Positions 2,848 through 22,240 of a DNA stretch of 41,639 bases are shown here, piece after piece. The stretch covers positions 1 through 41,639 of the forward strand of contig JAOZVS010000133.1 of assembly GCA_025869435.1 (NCBI GenBank), read 5' to 3'. The notes under the pieces are model-generated. The model was given only the letters and a program-made list of their open reading frames with translations. It was not told where the DNA came from and searched no databases. Position numbers and translations under genes: made by a program. Within the stretch, counting starts at the first letter, position 1, and every line of letters starts with the position of its first letter. The stretch comes from Zavarzinia sp. (lineage in GTDB: Bacteria; Pseudomonadota; Alphaproteobacteria; Zavarziniales; Zavarziniaceae).

Positions 2848-3510
2848 ATGGTGCACAGCTTCGATATCGAGGATGACGGCGGCGCCGAGGCGGCGCCCCA
2901 GGGCGGACGCATCCGCCAGCGCAACAAGGCGCGCATCATCGCGGCGGCGGAAAAGGTCTTCGCCGAACGCGGCTATGACGGCGCGACCACGGCGGAAATC
3001 GCCGAGATCGCCGGACTCGCCAAGTCCAACGTCCATTATTACTTCGGCACCAAGGAAGCGATCTACCGCGAGGTGGTGGCCGGCATCGTCGATCTGTGGC
3101 TGAAGGCCTTCGGCGAGATCACCGCCGAGGATGATCCGGCCACGGCGATCAGTGCCTATATCCGGCAGAAGCTGCTCTATTCCCGCAAGCGCCCGCTGGC
3201 TTCCCGCATCTTCGCGACCGAGATCATCAGGGGCGCGCCCATCCTGCGGCCCTTCCTCGAAGCGGACCTCCGCGACTGGGTGGAGGACAAGGCCAAGGTG
3301 CTGGCCCATTGGGCGGCGCAGGGGCGGATGGACGAAGTCTCGCCCCATCACTTCTTCTTCATGATCTGGGCGGCGACCCAGACTTACGCCGATTTCGCCA
3401 GCCAGATCGCCGCCGTTCTCGGCCACAAGCGCCTGCGCGAGGCGGATTTCGAGGAAGCGATCGCGACGGTGACCGCCATCGTCCTGAAGGGCTGCGGCAT
3501 CAGGGCCTAG
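2848..3510 (+). CDS. TetR-family regulator, RutR-like
   Basis: A 220-residue TetR regulator. The N-terminal HTH spans about residues 20-70 (AAEKVFAERGYDGATTAEIAE, then NVHYYFGTKEAIY). The C-terminal ligand domain shows landmarks of E. coli RutR, the uracil/thymine-responsive regulator of pyrimidine degradation: IYREVVAGIVDLWLKAF, EIIRGAPILRPFL and HHFFFMIWAATQTYADF. An open frame extends upstream, but ATG 2848 is chosen because the homology starts just after it and purine-rich AGGGAGG lies about 10 bases upstream. It is divergent from the BMP transporter, and a RutR-like palindrome lies in the gap. The likely role is local control of nucleobase uptake and its own gene; the ligand is not known. 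Confidence 0.88.
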   Translation: MVHSFDIEDDGGAEAAPQGGRIRQRNKARIIAAAEKVFAERGYDGATTAEIAEIAGLAKSNVHYYFGTKEAIYREVVAGIVDLWLKAFGEITAEDDPATAISAYIRQKLLYSRKRPLASRIFATEIIRGAPILRPFLEADLRDWVEDKAKVLAHWAAQGRMDEVSPHHFFFMIWAATQTYADFASQIAAVLGHKRLREADFEEAIATVTAIVLKGCGIRA

Positions 3511-3523
3511 CCGGGCCCGATAT

Positions 3524-3604
3524 CGTCATGCCGGCGAAGGCCGGCATCTTGGGCCGGCAAGGGCGCCCCCTCGTCGAAAGGCCCCGGCCTGCGCCGGGGC
3601 GACG
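3524..3604. repeat. Palindromic interspersed element with two hairpins
   Basis: An 81-bp element bounded by CGTC and GACG. It contains two perfect 8-bp stems: ATGCCGGC/GCCGGCAT (3528-3535 and 3540-3547, loop GAAG) and GCCCCGGC/GCCGGGGC (3581-3588 and 3593-3600, loop CTGC). The GTCATGCCGGCGAA.GCCGGCAT pattern is typical of short interspersed repeats in alphaproteobacterial intergenic DNA. It sits directly after the tetR stop codon and may act as a transcript 3' end. Confidence 0.6.
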
Positions 3605-3718
3605 AGCGAGAAAGCGGCTTCAGCTTTACGCAAGGCTGGCATGACCGTAACTTGGCGTGCGGTCCGGCGAACCTGTCCTTGCGGCAGGCGATGCCGCATC
3701 CGAGACGGAGACGAAACC

Positions 3719-4345
3719 ATGACCTCCTGCCCGATTCCGACGGGGCGCGGCCTCACCCCCGCCCAGTTTCCCGATCCCGCCCGCGATCTGTCGCCCGTGG
3801 CCGGCGAACAGGTGGCGGTCATCGCCGGGGGCTGCTTCTGGTGCACGGAGGCGGTTTACCGCGCGGTCGACGGCGTGATCGACGTCGTGCCCGGCTATGC
3901 CGGCGGCACGGCGGAAACCGCCGATTACAAGACGGTGTGCACCGGCCGGACCGATCATGCCGAGGCGATCCTGATCCGCTTCGATCCGGCGCGTACCAGC
4001 TATGGCCAGCTGCTGAAACTGTTCTTCTCGGTCGCCCATGACCCGACCCAGCTGAACCGCCAGGGCAACGACATCGGCCGGCAGTACCGCTCCGCCGTCT
4101 TCCATGCCAATGCCGAGGAGAAGGCCGTGGCGGAAGCCTATATCGCCCAGCTCGCGGCGGCAGGCGCCTTCACCGCGCCGATCGTCACCACGCTGGAGCC
4201 CCTGACCGCCTTCTGCGAGGCGGAGGAATATCACCACGATTACGCGGCGCGGAACCCGTACCAGCCCTATATCGCCCATGTCTCGCGGCCGAAGGTCGAC
4301 AAGCTGAAGGCCTATTTCCCCGAGCGGCTAAAGAAGGCGTGAGGG
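3719..4345 (+). CDS. msrA: Peptide methionine sulfoxide reductase MsrA
   Basis: Reduces the S-epimer of methionine sulfoxide in proteins using thioredoxin. The catalytic motif GGCFWCTE is present, with the nucleophilic Cys at residue 39, followed by YAGGTAETADYKTVCTGRTDHAEA and the C-terminal EEYHHDYAARNPYQPYI region, all diagnostic of MsrA. ATG 3719 is selected because GGAG (3707-3710) is well spaced and the product then has the usual size of about 208 residues; the reading frame itself is open further upstream. The stop codon TGA is at 4340-4342. The gene stands alone, convergent with the downstream protease gene. No msrB is seen in the window. Confidence 0.95.
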
Positions 4346-16742: not shown

Positions 16743-17285
16743 ATGAAGACGATATTGTTGCGCGCGGCCGCCCTTGCGGTCGCGGGTGTGGGGGCGCTTG
16801 CGCCCGCGATGCAGGCGGAAGCCCAGGTGGCGAAAAGCGGGGCGGTCCTGCCGCTGTCCCTCGCGATCGAGGCGGCGAGCGCGGCCATCGCGGCCTGCGA
16901 GGCCGGCGGCTACAATGTCTCCGTCGCCGTCGTCGACGCCTCGGGGGTGGTGAAACTGCAAGCCAAGGGCGATCACAGCACGATCCACACCAGGGATTCG
17001 AGCTTCCGCAAGGCCTATTCCGTGGTCACCCTCGGCCCCGTGTTCAAATTCGAGACCAGCGGCGATCTGGCGGCGCTGGTGGCGAAGAGCCCGGCGGGGC
17101 CGGCGCTGGCCTCGCTTCCCGACATATTGCCGCTGGCCGGTGGCGTCGCCATCAAATCGGGCGACGAGATCATCGCCGCCATCGGGGTCGGCGGCGCGCC
17201 GGGCGGCGACAAGGACGAAGCCTGCGCGCAGGCCGGCGTCGCCCGCATCCGCGACCGAATCCCGACCGGCCCCCATGCGTCCTGA
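16743..17285 (+). CDS. Exported HbpS/GlcG-family heme-binding-like protein
   Basis: A 180-residue protein with a signal peptide (LLRAAALAVAGVGALAPAMQAEAQ) followed by a GlcG/HbpS (DUF336) domain: LPLSLAIEAASAAIAACEAGGYNVSVAVVDASG, then DSSFRKAYSVVTLG, LPLAGGVAIKSGDEIIAAIGVGGAPGGDKDEACAQAGV (landmarks only). The family binds heme in Streptomyces HbpS and is of uncertain function elsewhere. ATG 16743 has GAGG about 7 bases upstream. It follows the CGNR regulator by 90 bp, with an AT-rich inverted repeat between, so it may be part of that regulon. The periplasmic location is inferred from the signal peptide. Confidence 0.85.
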   Translation: MKTILLRAAALAVAGVGALAPAMQAEAQVAKSGAVLPLSLAIEAASAAIAACEAGGYNVSVAVVDASGVVKLQAKGDHSTIHTRDSSFRKAYSVVTLGPVFKFETSGDLAALVAKSPAGPALASLPDILPLAGGVAIKSGDEIIAAIGVGGAPGGDKDEACAQAGVARIRDRIPTGPHAS

Positions 17286-17312
17286 GGCGCGAAAAATTCT
17301 CCGGCCCGCGGC

Positions 17313-17338
17313 GTAACCTCCCGCTGCGCTTCGGCGAA
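17313..17338 (+). promoter_or_regulatory. SigF/ECF16-type promoter GTAACC-N16-CGAA
   Basis: GTAACC (17313-17318) is followed after exactly 16 bases by CGAA (17335-17338). This is the promoter pattern known for the extracytoplasmic sigma factor SigF of Caulobacter, which controls heavy-metal-responsive bufferin (DUF2282/DUF692) genes. Here it lies about 90 bp before the bufferin-like gene, giving a 5' leader of about 85 nt that includes a hairpin. The other GTAACC occurrences that were checked in the window lack a correctly placed CGAA. Confidence 0.75.
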
Positions 17339-17347
17339 CCTGTCAAT

Positions 17348-17373
17348 ACGGCCCCGGAGATGCTCGGGGCCGT
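17348..17373 (+). other. 5'-leader hairpin ahead of the bufferin-like gene
   Basis: A perfect 9-bp stem ACGGCCCCG/CGGGGCCGT with an 8-nt loop begins about 10 bases after the predicted transcription start of the SigF-type promoter. No T-tract follows. It could protect the transcript 5' end, or mark the end of the preceding HbpS/GlcG-like transcript. Confidence 0.5.
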
Positions 17374-17429
17374 CGGCGGATGAAAAGGAAACCGCCGCCC
17401 CCCACCCCCGATGTTATCTGGAGCATACC

Positions 17430-17681
17430 ATGAGCAGGACCGGTCTTACTCTCGCCGCGGCGGCTGCCGCCCTCTTTTCCGCCGGCAGCATGATGCTGGC
17501 GCCGGTCGCGGCCCATGCGGCGGGCGGCGTGCATTGCGTCGGCGCCAATGCCTGTAAGGGCCAGAGCGCCTGCAAGACCGCCACCAATGCCTGCAAGGGC
17601 CTCAACGAGTGCAAGGGCCAGGGCTTCGTCGAACTCGACAGCAAGGCGGCCTGCGAGTCCGCCGGCGGCCACGTCGGCTGA
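17430..17681 (+). CDS. Small Cys-rich exported protein, BufA2-like bufferin metallophore
   Basis: An 83-residue precursor with a signal peptide (about 1-30, ending AHA) and a short mature part with six Cys in spaced motifs: VHCVGANACKG, SACKTATNACKG, NECKGQGF and KAACESAGG. This layout is that of the BufA2-type bufferins, small periplasmic peptides whose Cys are modified by an MNIO enzyme (BufB, DUF692) and which bind copper or other metals. Neither bufB nor bufC is present nearby. It lies behind a SigF-type promoter and upstream of a DUF1223 gene, suggesting a metal-stress transcript. ATG 17430 has GGAG 6 bases upstream. The family assignment is by motif recognition, not by a search. Confidence 0.78.
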   Translation: MSRTGLTLAAAAAALFSAGSMMLAPVAAHAAGGVHCVGANACKGQSACKTATNACKGLNECKGQGFVELDSKAACESAGGHVG

Positions 17682-17771: not shown

Positions 17772-17823
17772 GCACGGATCCGGCGCGCCCCCCGGATCCG
17801 TGCGCCCCTTGACCCAAGGGCGC
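17772..17823 (+). other. Two overlapping, mutually exclusive hairpins before the DUF1223 gene
   Basis: A perfect 12-bp stem GCACGGATCCGG/CCGGATCCGTGC (17772-17783 and 17792-17803) overlaps at its last bases a second stem GCGCCCCTTG/CAAGGGCGC (17802-17811 and 17815-17823, one bulged C). Both lie between the bufferin-like and DUF1223 genes, just ahead of the GGAG ribosome site. They could set the ratio of the two proteins by attenuation or RNA stability. Confidence 0.45.
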
Positions 17824-17840: not shown

Positions 17841-18527
17841 ATGCGTCTCGCCGCCCTCGCCCTGCTGCTCGCGGCCGCCGCGCCCGTCGCGGCCAACGCC
17901 GGCAAGCCCGTCGTCGTGGAACTTTTCACATCGCAGGGATGTTCGTCCTGCCCGCCCGCGGACGATTATCTGCGCAGTCTCGCCACCTCCGGCGACGATG
18001 TCCTGCCCCTGGCCTTCCATGTCACCTACTGGAACCAGCTCGGCTGGTCCGATCCCTATTCGCTGGAAGCGGGCACGCAACGTCAACGTCTCTATGCCTC
18101 GCTGCTCGGCCAGCGTCAGATCTATACGCCGCAGATGGTGATCGACGGCCGCTGGCAGGCGGTCGGCTCGGATCGCGCCGCCGTCGGCCGCCTGATCCGC
18201 GACGCCGCGGCCGAGGACGAAGCCGTCGCCATCGAGGCGCGGCGCGATGGCGCGGAACTCAGCATCCGCATCGGCGCGTCCCCGGCAGCCGGGCGCGGCC
18301 TGGTCCTTCTCGTCGGTTACGATCCCGAGCATCGCACCGCTATCGGCCGCGGCGAGAATGGCGGCCGCACCCTGACCGAGGCCAATATCGTGCGCAGTCT
18401 CGATATCGCCGGCGAATGGCGGGGCGAGAGCCTGGGCCTTCGGGTCCCCCTCGGCGATGGCGCGCGCTTCGCCGTGCTGCTTCAGGGCGAGGACGGACGC
18501 ATCATCGGTGCCGCCCGCGCGGATTAA
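17841..18527 (+). CDS. Exported DUF1223 thioredoxin-fold protein
   Basis: A 228-residue protein with a signal peptide (MRLAALALLLAAAAPVAANA) and a DUF1223 domain that begins VVELFTSQGCSSCPPADDYL. The CSSC sits where thioredoxins carry CxxC, and FHVTYWNQLGWSDP and IYTPQMVIDGR are further family landmarks. The biological role of DUF1223 is not established; a periplasmic redox or metal-related function is a reasonable guess. GGAG (AGGAGAA) lies about 8 bases before ATG 17841. It follows the bufferin-like gene by 159 bp with hairpins between and may share the SigF-type promoter. Its stop overlaps the stop of the convergent AraC gene by 4 bp. Confidence 0.87.
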   Translation: MRLAALALLLAAAAPVAANAGKPVVVELFTSQGCSSCPPADDYLRSLATSGDDVLPLAFHVTYWNQLGWSDPYSLEAGTQRQRLYASLLGQRQIYTPQMVIDGRWQAVGSDRAAVGRLIRDAAAEDEAVAIEARRDGAELSIRIGASPAAGRGLVLLVGYDPEHRTAIGRGENGGRTLTEANIVRSLDIAGEWRGESLGLRVPLGDGARFAVLLQGEDGRIIGAARAD

Positions 18528-21107: not shown

Positions 21108-21827
21108 TCAATATCGGGTGGTCAGTTCGGTCAGCCAGACCGGCGAGAGATCGACCAGGAGGGTTTCCACGCTGCGGTCGATCCCGCTGAGGATGAAGAG
21201 GCCGAGCAGGCCAAGCATGACCCCCAGCAGCCGCTTGCCGCCCTTGCCGGCACCGAGCAGCCGGCGGCGCCAACGCGTCATCGCCTCGCGCGAGGCAAGG
21301 CCGATCAGGACGAGGGGCAGGCCCGCGCCGATGCCGAAGGCGGTCATGACCAGGGTGACCTGACCGAGGTCGCGGCCCTGCGCCGCCAGCACCGAGGCTG
21401 CCCCCAGCGTCGGCCCGACGCAGGGCGACCAGACCGCGCCCAGCAGCAGGCCAAGGCCGAACTGGCCGATGGGGCCGCCGGGCTGGAGCTGGTTCAGCCG
21501 CTGACCGGCCCAGTCGCCGACCGGGCCGGCGAAGGTGCTCAGACGGTCCTGCAGGGCCGGGACCAGCAGCAGCACGCCCGCGCCCAGCAGCAGGACGGCG
21601 CCCGCGCGGCGAACCACGGCGCCATCGAAGCCGAGGCCATAACCGATCGTCGCGATGAAAAGCCCGATGGTGACGAAGGACAGGGCAAGGCCGGCGGCAA
21701 GGCCGAGCGGGCCCAGCGGGTGCCGTGCGCCGGCGGCGCCCAGCACGATGGGCAGCAGCGGCAGCACGCAGGGCGACAGGATCGACAGGACGCCGGCCAG
21801 AAAGGCCAGGGCTTCGTGACCGAACAT
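21108..21827 (-). CDS. ccdA: CcdA-type membrane thiol-disulfide transporter
   Basis: A 239-residue polytopic protein of the CcdA/DsbD-beta family, which passes electrons from cytoplasmic thioredoxin to periplasmic thiol proteins. The first helix has LSPCVLPLLPI and a later helix WSPCVGPTLGAA: the two redox Cys with adjacent Pro expected for the family. Six hydrophobic segments are visible. ATG 21827 is chosen because the protein then begins MFGHEALAFLAGVLSILSP and GGAG lies 4 bases upstream. It starts 11 bp after the thioredoxin-like gene, which is its likely periplasmic partner, and is followed 9 bp later by the HAD gene. Confidence 0.9.
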   Translation of the reverse strand: MFGHEALAFLAGVLSILSPCVLPLLPIVLGAAGARHPLGPLGLAAGLALSFVTIGLFIATIGYGLGFDGAVVRRAGAVLLLGAGVLLLVPALQDRLSTFAGPVGDWAGQRLNQLQPGGPIGQFGLGLLLGAVWSPCVGPTLGAASVLAAQGRDLGQVTLVMTAFGIGAGLPLVLIGLASREAMTRWRRRLLGAGKGGKRLLGVMLGLLGLFILSGIDRSVETLLVDLSPVWLTELTTRY

Positions 21828-21838
21828 TGCGCTCCGCC

Positions 21839-22240
21839 TCAGGGTGCGACGGCGCTTTGGATCAGCGCGGCGATGGAGTTGGGGCGCGTGTCGCCGATGG
21901 AACGGCCGGTCTCGACCTTGCCGCGATAGGCGATCAGCGTGCTCTGGCTGCGGGCGTCGAAGGCGCGGACGACATCGGCCTGCCGGTCGAAATCGACCTC
22001 GAACACCAGCAGGGTCTCGTTGCCGGGGGCCGCCAGGAGACTGTCGATGATCGGCTTCTGCGCCCGGCAGGTCGGGCACCAGTCGGCGGCGATGTCGATC
22101 AGGATGGGGGCGCCGATGGCTTGCGCCTCGGCGAAGGCGGCGGCATCGAAGGGCAGGCGGCTGCCGGACCAGGCGGGGCCGGCGAGGGCGGCGAAAGCGG
22201 GCACGGCCAGAATGGCGGCCAGCACCTGGCGTCGGTTCAT
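21839..22240 (-). CDS. Exported thioredoxin-like protein
   Basis: A 133-residue protein with a signal segment (RRQVLAAILAVPAFAALAGPAWSG) followed by a thioredoxin fold whose active site is ADWCPTCRAQ (CPTC). The layout matches small periplasmic thioredoxins that receive electrons from CcdA, or the DsbD gamma domain. It lies between the peroxiredoxin-like gene (16 bp gap) and ccdA (11 bp gap) in one operon. Its likely role is to reduce periplasmic disulfides, perhaps of the co-encoded HAD protein or other exported partners. Confidence 0.9.
   Translation of the reverse strand: MNRRQVLAAILAVPAFAALAGPAWSGSRLPFDAAAFAEAQAIGAPILIDIAADWCPTCRAQKPIIDSLLAAPGNETLLVFEVDFDRQADVVRAFDARSQSTLIAYRGKVETGRSIGDTRPNSIAALIQSAVAP

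Follow-up and report, generated by a model that had tools for sequence, protein, structure and literature searches.

The locus studied here raises the question of whether an exact SigF-type promoter string in front of a bufferin gene that stands without its modifying enzyme marks a genuine regulon unit, and what such a unit would do. In the window, by which we mean the whole 41,639-nt stretch of DNA analysed, GTAACC-N16-CGAA was found as a single copy at positions 17313-17338 (+) by pattern search, with GTAAC as -35 box and CGAA as -10 box. A preliminary description had taken it for a SigF-type promoter with a hairpin-containing leader and a bufferin-like gene behind it, and had proposed that a SigF/NrsF-type pair is encoded outside the window and that the unit responds to copper or another metal. 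We consider it quite probable that the window holds a unit of a SigF (ECF16-type) regulon, consisting of this promoter, a bufA2 gene and probably a DUF1223 gene, and that its BufA2 peptide would be modified in trans and bind metal.

Place and conservation of the promoter element

The SigF promoters of Caulobacter, examined by 5' RACE, read GTAACC-N16-CGAA (PMC3511200), and the ECF16 consensus is quoted as (T/C)GTAAC-N17-CGAA (PMC8315932), which positions 17312-17338 fit as CGTAAC-N17-CGAA. Dinucleotide shuffles of the window gave a mean of 0.02 matches, with a match in 2 of 100 shuffles. The element lies 27 nt 3' of the stop codon of an HbpS-like gene, with 91 nt separating it from the bufA2 ATG downstream, and both boxes are unchanged in the alignment with Z. 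aquatilis. The HbpS-like gene (haem-degrading protein, 16743-17285, same strand) directly precedes the promoter and itself lies behind an ABATE/CGNR regulator gene. A looser form of the element was found exactly twice in the window, before bufA2 and before msrA. The latter gene (3719-4342 (+)) encodes peptide-methionine (S)-S-oxide reductase (PF01625, 193.9 bits; TIGR00401, 170.2 bits, above cut-off), and its SigF-type element, the second of the window, reads GTAACT-N15-CGAA (3647-3671 (+), pattern search).

The genome scan suggested in the preliminary description gave 7 exact matches to GTAACC-N16-CGAA in the window's genome versus 2 for the reversed pattern, and looser forms were not clearly enriched: GTAAC-N16/17-CGAA had 18 matches versus 39 for the reversed pattern, and GTAACY-N15/16-CGAAC had 45 versus 63 across six Zavarzinia genomes. 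The genome-wide motif count was dropped as evidence because the looser forms are rarer than their reversed control; the string alone is no proof, and place and conservation carry the case. These low counts are what would be expected if the match had arisen by chance and another sigma factor started the gene. However, with 18 matches spread over 6.97 Mb of strand, about 0.0006 would be expected in the 250 nt ahead of any one gene, whereas each of the 4 bufA and msrA genes identified in this genome (3 bufA and 1 msrA by family search) is preceded by the element, so that the matches exceed chance by position. Five of the 18 matches lie before bufA1, the operon bufA2, the window bufA2, msrA and an msrQ-like gene; most of the remaining 13 fall within called genes or lack a gene close downstream, and a few precede other genes. 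The match on contig C89 precedes a 99-aa exported-looking protein, for which the family search returned no family. A matching element was also seen at like places in the window's genome (contig C129, L150:2579-2604) and in Z. aquatilis (contig C32, L152:2783-2808), in both just 3' of a called ORF ending there.

Across the family, GTAAC-N16/17-CGAA precedes 15/15 bufA genes found in seven genomes, starting 81-129 nt 5' of the ATG. These are 6 bufA1 and 7 bufA2 genes adjoining bufB, plus 2 stand-alone bufA2 genes, one in the window and one in Z. aquatilis; the count covers family rows, with 8 of 23 rows left out because they come from non-family genomes (a match is present in 2 of these 8). Set against the 0.0006 expected per gene, even though the 15 genes are related and not independent, this result makes a chance match very improbable. 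The element was likewise found before 7/7 msrA genes of the genus Zavarzinia, one of them that of the window (a 30-residue fragment on a contig of genome G003 was omitted), and before 5/5 Zavarzinia msrP genes with readable upstream DNA; a contig end truncates the sixth msrP, which belongs to the genome of the window, and five weaker matches of 27-30% identity were omitted. Since the genes are related by descent, these 27 cases (15 bufA, 7 msrA, 5 msrP) are not independent events. Among them the boxes stay while the spacers and leaders differ; compared with Caulobacter, the elements of bufA1, most msrA and some bufA2 genes have a spacer shorter by one base. At least 23 of the 45 GTAACY-N15/16-CGAAC matches in the six genomes precede bufA, msrA, msrP, msrQ-like or DUF1223 genes; 30 of the 45 were read in their surroundings and the others by coordinates, leaving out at least five (G004 C12:231202; G005 1866424, 3581127 and C16:290283; G003 C453). 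The reading as a SigF-type promoter was borne out by the consensus fit and the 15/15 bufA genes, and a dependence of the putative window promoter on SigF/ECF16 is supported at the sequence level.

The stand-alone bufA2 gene and the DUF1223 gene

The gene behind the promoter (17430-17681 (+), 83 aa) was identified as bufA2 by NCBIfam NF050166, with 92.6 bits against a cut-off of 60, while a Pfam search of the ORF gave no match. Its product has six Cys, the same number as the operon copies, and its start looks like a signal peptide by eye. A hairpin with a 10-bp stem was found by folding in the leader (17348-17373 (+)), near where the transcript is expected to begin; its stem is kept in Z. aquatilis with one G-C/G-U exchange each way, as read by eye from an alignment of these two sequences only. 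Both the bufferin-like gene and the hairpin-containing leader had thus been correctly described from the start. Among named genomes, the best match in the BufA2 search was Zavarzinia aquatilis HR-AS (99%), with 248/252 bases the same and a changed residue in 1 of 84 codons. The corresponding numbers of identical bases were 517/543 for HbpS, 619/687 for DUF1223 and 83/91 for the leader, so that bufA2 is the best kept of the three genes compared.

In a standard bufferin cluster, bufA is adjoined by bufB (MNIO) and bufC (DUF2063). As searched by tblastn, no bufB lies near the window bufA2 or its Z. aquatilis orthologue; bufB adjoins 13 of the 15 family bufA genes and is absent beside these two copies. 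MNIO matches in the window's genome were found only on contigs C38 and C138, and C138 carries a complete bufA2-bufB2-bufC2 set with its own element of the same type. In a tree of 85 BufA2 proteins, the two stand-alone copies lie inside the family's BufA2 group (9 rows, 99/90; 8 rows, 100/96) and close to the operon copies, the finer placing being unsure with 87 columns. Given this position, the window bufA2 is most simply explained by duplication of the operon BufA2 gene and not by acquisition from afar.

Because no bufB stands beside the window copy, any modification of its peptide would occur in trans, and there is reason to expect such modification, since an ECF16-type promoter is common to the stand-alone bufA2 and the bufA2-bufB2-bufC2 operon of the same genome. 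A further gene for a modifying enzyme is possible, as this genome is 75.5% complete. Stand-alone bufferin precursors have been reported in sizeable proportions, and the available text of that report admits two possibilities, modification by enzymes of another locus and no modification at all (PMC12452194). The extra BufA2 could accordingly be a plain Cys-rich peptide, metal-binding or sacrificial, that is never modified, as its lack of a neighbouring bufB would allow. On the other hand, it has six Cys like the operon copies, the genome also encodes BufB2 and BufC2 downstream of an element of this type, and Table 3 of PMC12452194 gives 0/864 genomes with Buf_6-12Cys precursors and without an MNIO gene. 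An unmodified peptide is unlikely on these grounds, and the shared promoter bears on the point left open by PMC12452194, namely that enzymes for precursors without a neighbouring MNIO gene may be coded elsewhere.

Similar genes were then found in other lineages. Among the BufA2 loci in named genomes (best 80 of 253), 30 had no nearby MNIO match. GTAAC-N16/17-CGAA was found within 250 nt of 9 of these 30 and of 6 of 49 MNIO-linked loci, where the remaining sequence of these loci predicts 0.0013; one locus of the 80 (L130) was dropped because its upstream DNA was too short, and for 8 of the 30 loci without MNIO less than 2.5 kb downstream is available. Three of the 6 MNIO-linked loci with the element belong to the Zavarzinia family, and one of the 9 MNIO-less loci is the Z. 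aquatilis copy. The other eight, outside Zavarzinia (L074, L078, L081, L098, L122, L136, L140 and L141), read GTAACG-N16/17-CGAA, with MNIO judged near the locus only, and a DoxX gene comes next in 6 of the 8. Stand-alone Buf2 under ECF16 may therefore be a repeated design, in which one enzyme set serves several peptides and they are tied together by a shared sigma factor, not by an operon.

Downstream of bufA2, a DUF1223 gene was found at 17841-18527 (+), starting 159 nt after bufA2 (PF06764, 200.6 bits, cut-off 30.7). Its product contains a CxxC motif (CSSCPPAD), begins with a signal-peptide-like stretch by eye, and matches PDB 2axo with an E value of 3.4e-33; DUF1223 is described as a thioredoxin-fold family (PMC3091736). 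Co-transcription of bufA2 and DUF1223 is likely, given how the genes are arranged and that no second element of this kind lies between them. A perfect 12-bp hairpin with no T run lies between the two genes (17772-17803 (+), by folding) and is identical in Z. aquatilis; it is possibly an attenuator or an mRNA 3' end and may reduce read-through into DUF1223. A DsbD-like membrane gene and a thioredoxin-like gene were also noticed on the other strand at 21108-22240, 2.6 kb past DUF1223.

Z. aquatilis keeps the promoter, bufA2 and DUF1223 in order, with 68 of 687 bases differing in DUF1223 and 23 of its codons changing the residue. The promoter might serve mainly DUF1223, with bufA2 as a passenger that was copied into the leader and is now being lost. 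Such a history would agree with Z. marina, where DUF1223 follows the element at a distance of 39 nt without an intervening bufA2, and with family genome G006, where a GTGAC variant precedes DUF1223, but it sits poorly with the conservation of bufA2, the best kept of the three genes against Z. aquatilis, and we hold it to be distinctly improbable. DUF1223 was not found in the genus genomes G002, G003 and G005. In a survey of 51 loci from 49 genomes, among 115 genomes of the class searched, the element was found within 330 nt upstream of the DUF1223 domain at 2/12 loci in genomes with NrsF and 0/39 in genomes without it; the window locus was scored as a miss because bufA2 lies between, the 51 loci come from 52 matches (the second piece of the G010 gene was omitted), and L223 has only 98 nt upstream. 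DUF1223 as a general SigF target was rejected on these numbers, which make its link with the element a feature of few lineages. A literature search on the family name found no link with bufferin or ECF16 in the text available. For the window we propose, tentatively and as something that could well prove wrong, a further kind of output of SigF, in which a duplicated BufA2 that has no enzyme genes of its own and was captured between an ECF16 promoter and DUF1223 would be matured in trans by enzymes of another operon under the same regulator, and DUF1223 would be a dedicated periplasmic thiol or copper partner.

The sigF-nrsF pair and the nature of the signal

The SigF/NrsF-type pair predicted to lie outside the window was confirmed. 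NrsF is encoded on contig C38 at 3313-3924 (L034:3280-3933; Pfam PF06532, 69 bits), and an ECF sigma gene (Sigma70_r2, r4_2) lies directly before it. Absence of an ECF16 sigma gene from the genome had been named as a finding against the proposal; the gene is present, its ECF16 class being judged from its NrsF neighbour. Divergent from nrsF are bufA1 (DUF2282), bufB1 (MNIO, above the BufB cut-off), bufC1 (DUF2063) and a DoxX gene. NrsF was found in 6/6 genomes of the genus, one per genome, and was not found in family genome G006 (92% complete), though the bufA2 of this genome has the element. Autoregulation of sigF was rejected for the window's genome: sigF has no such element in front of it there, and C38 carries a single match, the one before bufA1.

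The control that NrsF exerts in Caulobacter is influenced by two conserved Cys, C131 and C181 (PMC3511200). Of the Cys in Zavarzinia NrsF, one is the residue present in all 11 NrsF of an alignment and another, at position 116, is common to 7 of the 11; none stands where two of the 11 (G010 and G025) carry a further one. From the alignment we infer that this further Cys corresponds to Caulobacter C181, and stress sensing by Zavarzinia NrsF may differ from that in Caulobacter.

The signal was considered from the putative targets. An msrQ-like gene on contig C114 scored 114 bits, below the MsrQ cut-off of 130, with the element upstream; such a gene is preceded by the element in two genomes, which gives no independent test because the gene was met through its element. 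The SigF-controlled genes that Cu upregulates in Caulobacter comprise two bufferin-type operons, sigF-nrsF and MsrPQ, and the sigF mutant is Cu-sensitive (PMC8224329); the regulon is also induced by chromate and cadmium (PMC3511200). The Brucella ECF16 pair answers to hypochlorous acid and controls msrQ/msrP-like genes (PMC8315932). With Cu in Caulobacter, HOCl in Brucella and Msr genes behind the element here, two signals are possible, metal or oxidant, and the response of the window unit to copper or another metal, as first proposed, is plausible by analogy as one of two live options.

The other option keeps the SigF-dependent promoter and takes an oxidant of methionine and cysteine, hypochlorous acid or similar, as the signal, with bufferins acting as thiol sinks or guarding against copper-driven oxidation and the metal response secondary. 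It draws on the Brucella precedent and on the element before msrA and msrP in the genus and before the msrQ-like gene in two genomes. However, bufferin units make up 3 of the 6 targets named, the Caulobacter regulon including MsrPQ was Cu-induced under all conditions tested (PMC8224329), and it was reported unresponsive to ROS-generating agents (PMC3511200). An oxidant signal is a serious but less favoured possibility.

Proposed course and comparison with known systems

According to the reading that we prefer, periplasmic stress would inactivate the membrane anti-sigma factor NrsF, and freed SigF would switch on bufA1-bufB1-bufC1-doxX, bufA2-bufB2-bufC2, the extra bufA2 with DUF1223, msrA, msrP and the msrQ-like gene. 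The Cys of the extra BufA2 would be modified in trans by BufB2/BufC2 of the other operon, and the modified peptide, once exported, would capture surplus copper, or a different soft metal, in the periplasm. In that compartment the DUF1223 protein would be a thiol/disulfide or metal-handling partner.

The literature search found nothing joining bufferin, SigF and Caulobacter, nor Zavarzinia and a sigma factor, which is a weak negative with most subscription journals outside its scope. Sigma/NrsF genes are reported with Buf1 but not Buf2 clusters in the accessible part of PMC12452194; for comparison, a bufA2-bufB locus of Reyranella (L108) has an NrsF match beside it (near 4244 and 4974) and GTAACC-N16-CGAA before bufA2.

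The Zavarzinia system resembles the Caulobacter SigF/NrsF regulon, as far as described in the available text of PMC3511200 and PMC8224329, in the promoter GTAACC-N16-CGAA, in NrsF, in DUF2282/DUF692 bufferin-type operons and in MsrPQ targets. Unlike that regulon, it adds msrA, the stand-alone bufA2 and DUF1223 as putative targets, lacks an element before sigF, differs in the Cys of NrsF and has some spacers one base shorter. The Brucella BcrS-AbcS (ECF16) system, which controls bcrXQP, is alike in promoter consensus, sigma/anti-sigma class and Msr targets, whereas its signal is HOCl and the methionine-rich peptide BcrX takes the place of a bufferin (PMC8315932). Like the Buf2 bufferins, which are six-Cys MNIO-modified RiPPs, the window gene encodes a six-Cys precursor, here predicted to be exported; unlike those described in the accessible part of PMC12452194, its next gene is DUF1223 and its promoter is of ECF16 type. 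The DUF1223 gene itself agrees with the family of PDB 2axo in thioredoxin-fold family and sequence match. Promoter, regulator and peptide are all of known kinds; what is new, as far as searched, is their arrangement, in which an ECF16-type promoter is followed by a BufA2 gene without enzyme genes and by DUF1223. The shared promoter type also suggests that the SigF regulon of Zavarzinia includes msrA and a DUF1223 gene, which would tie the buffering of copper to the repair of methionine and to a thioredoxin-fold family that is uncharacterised.
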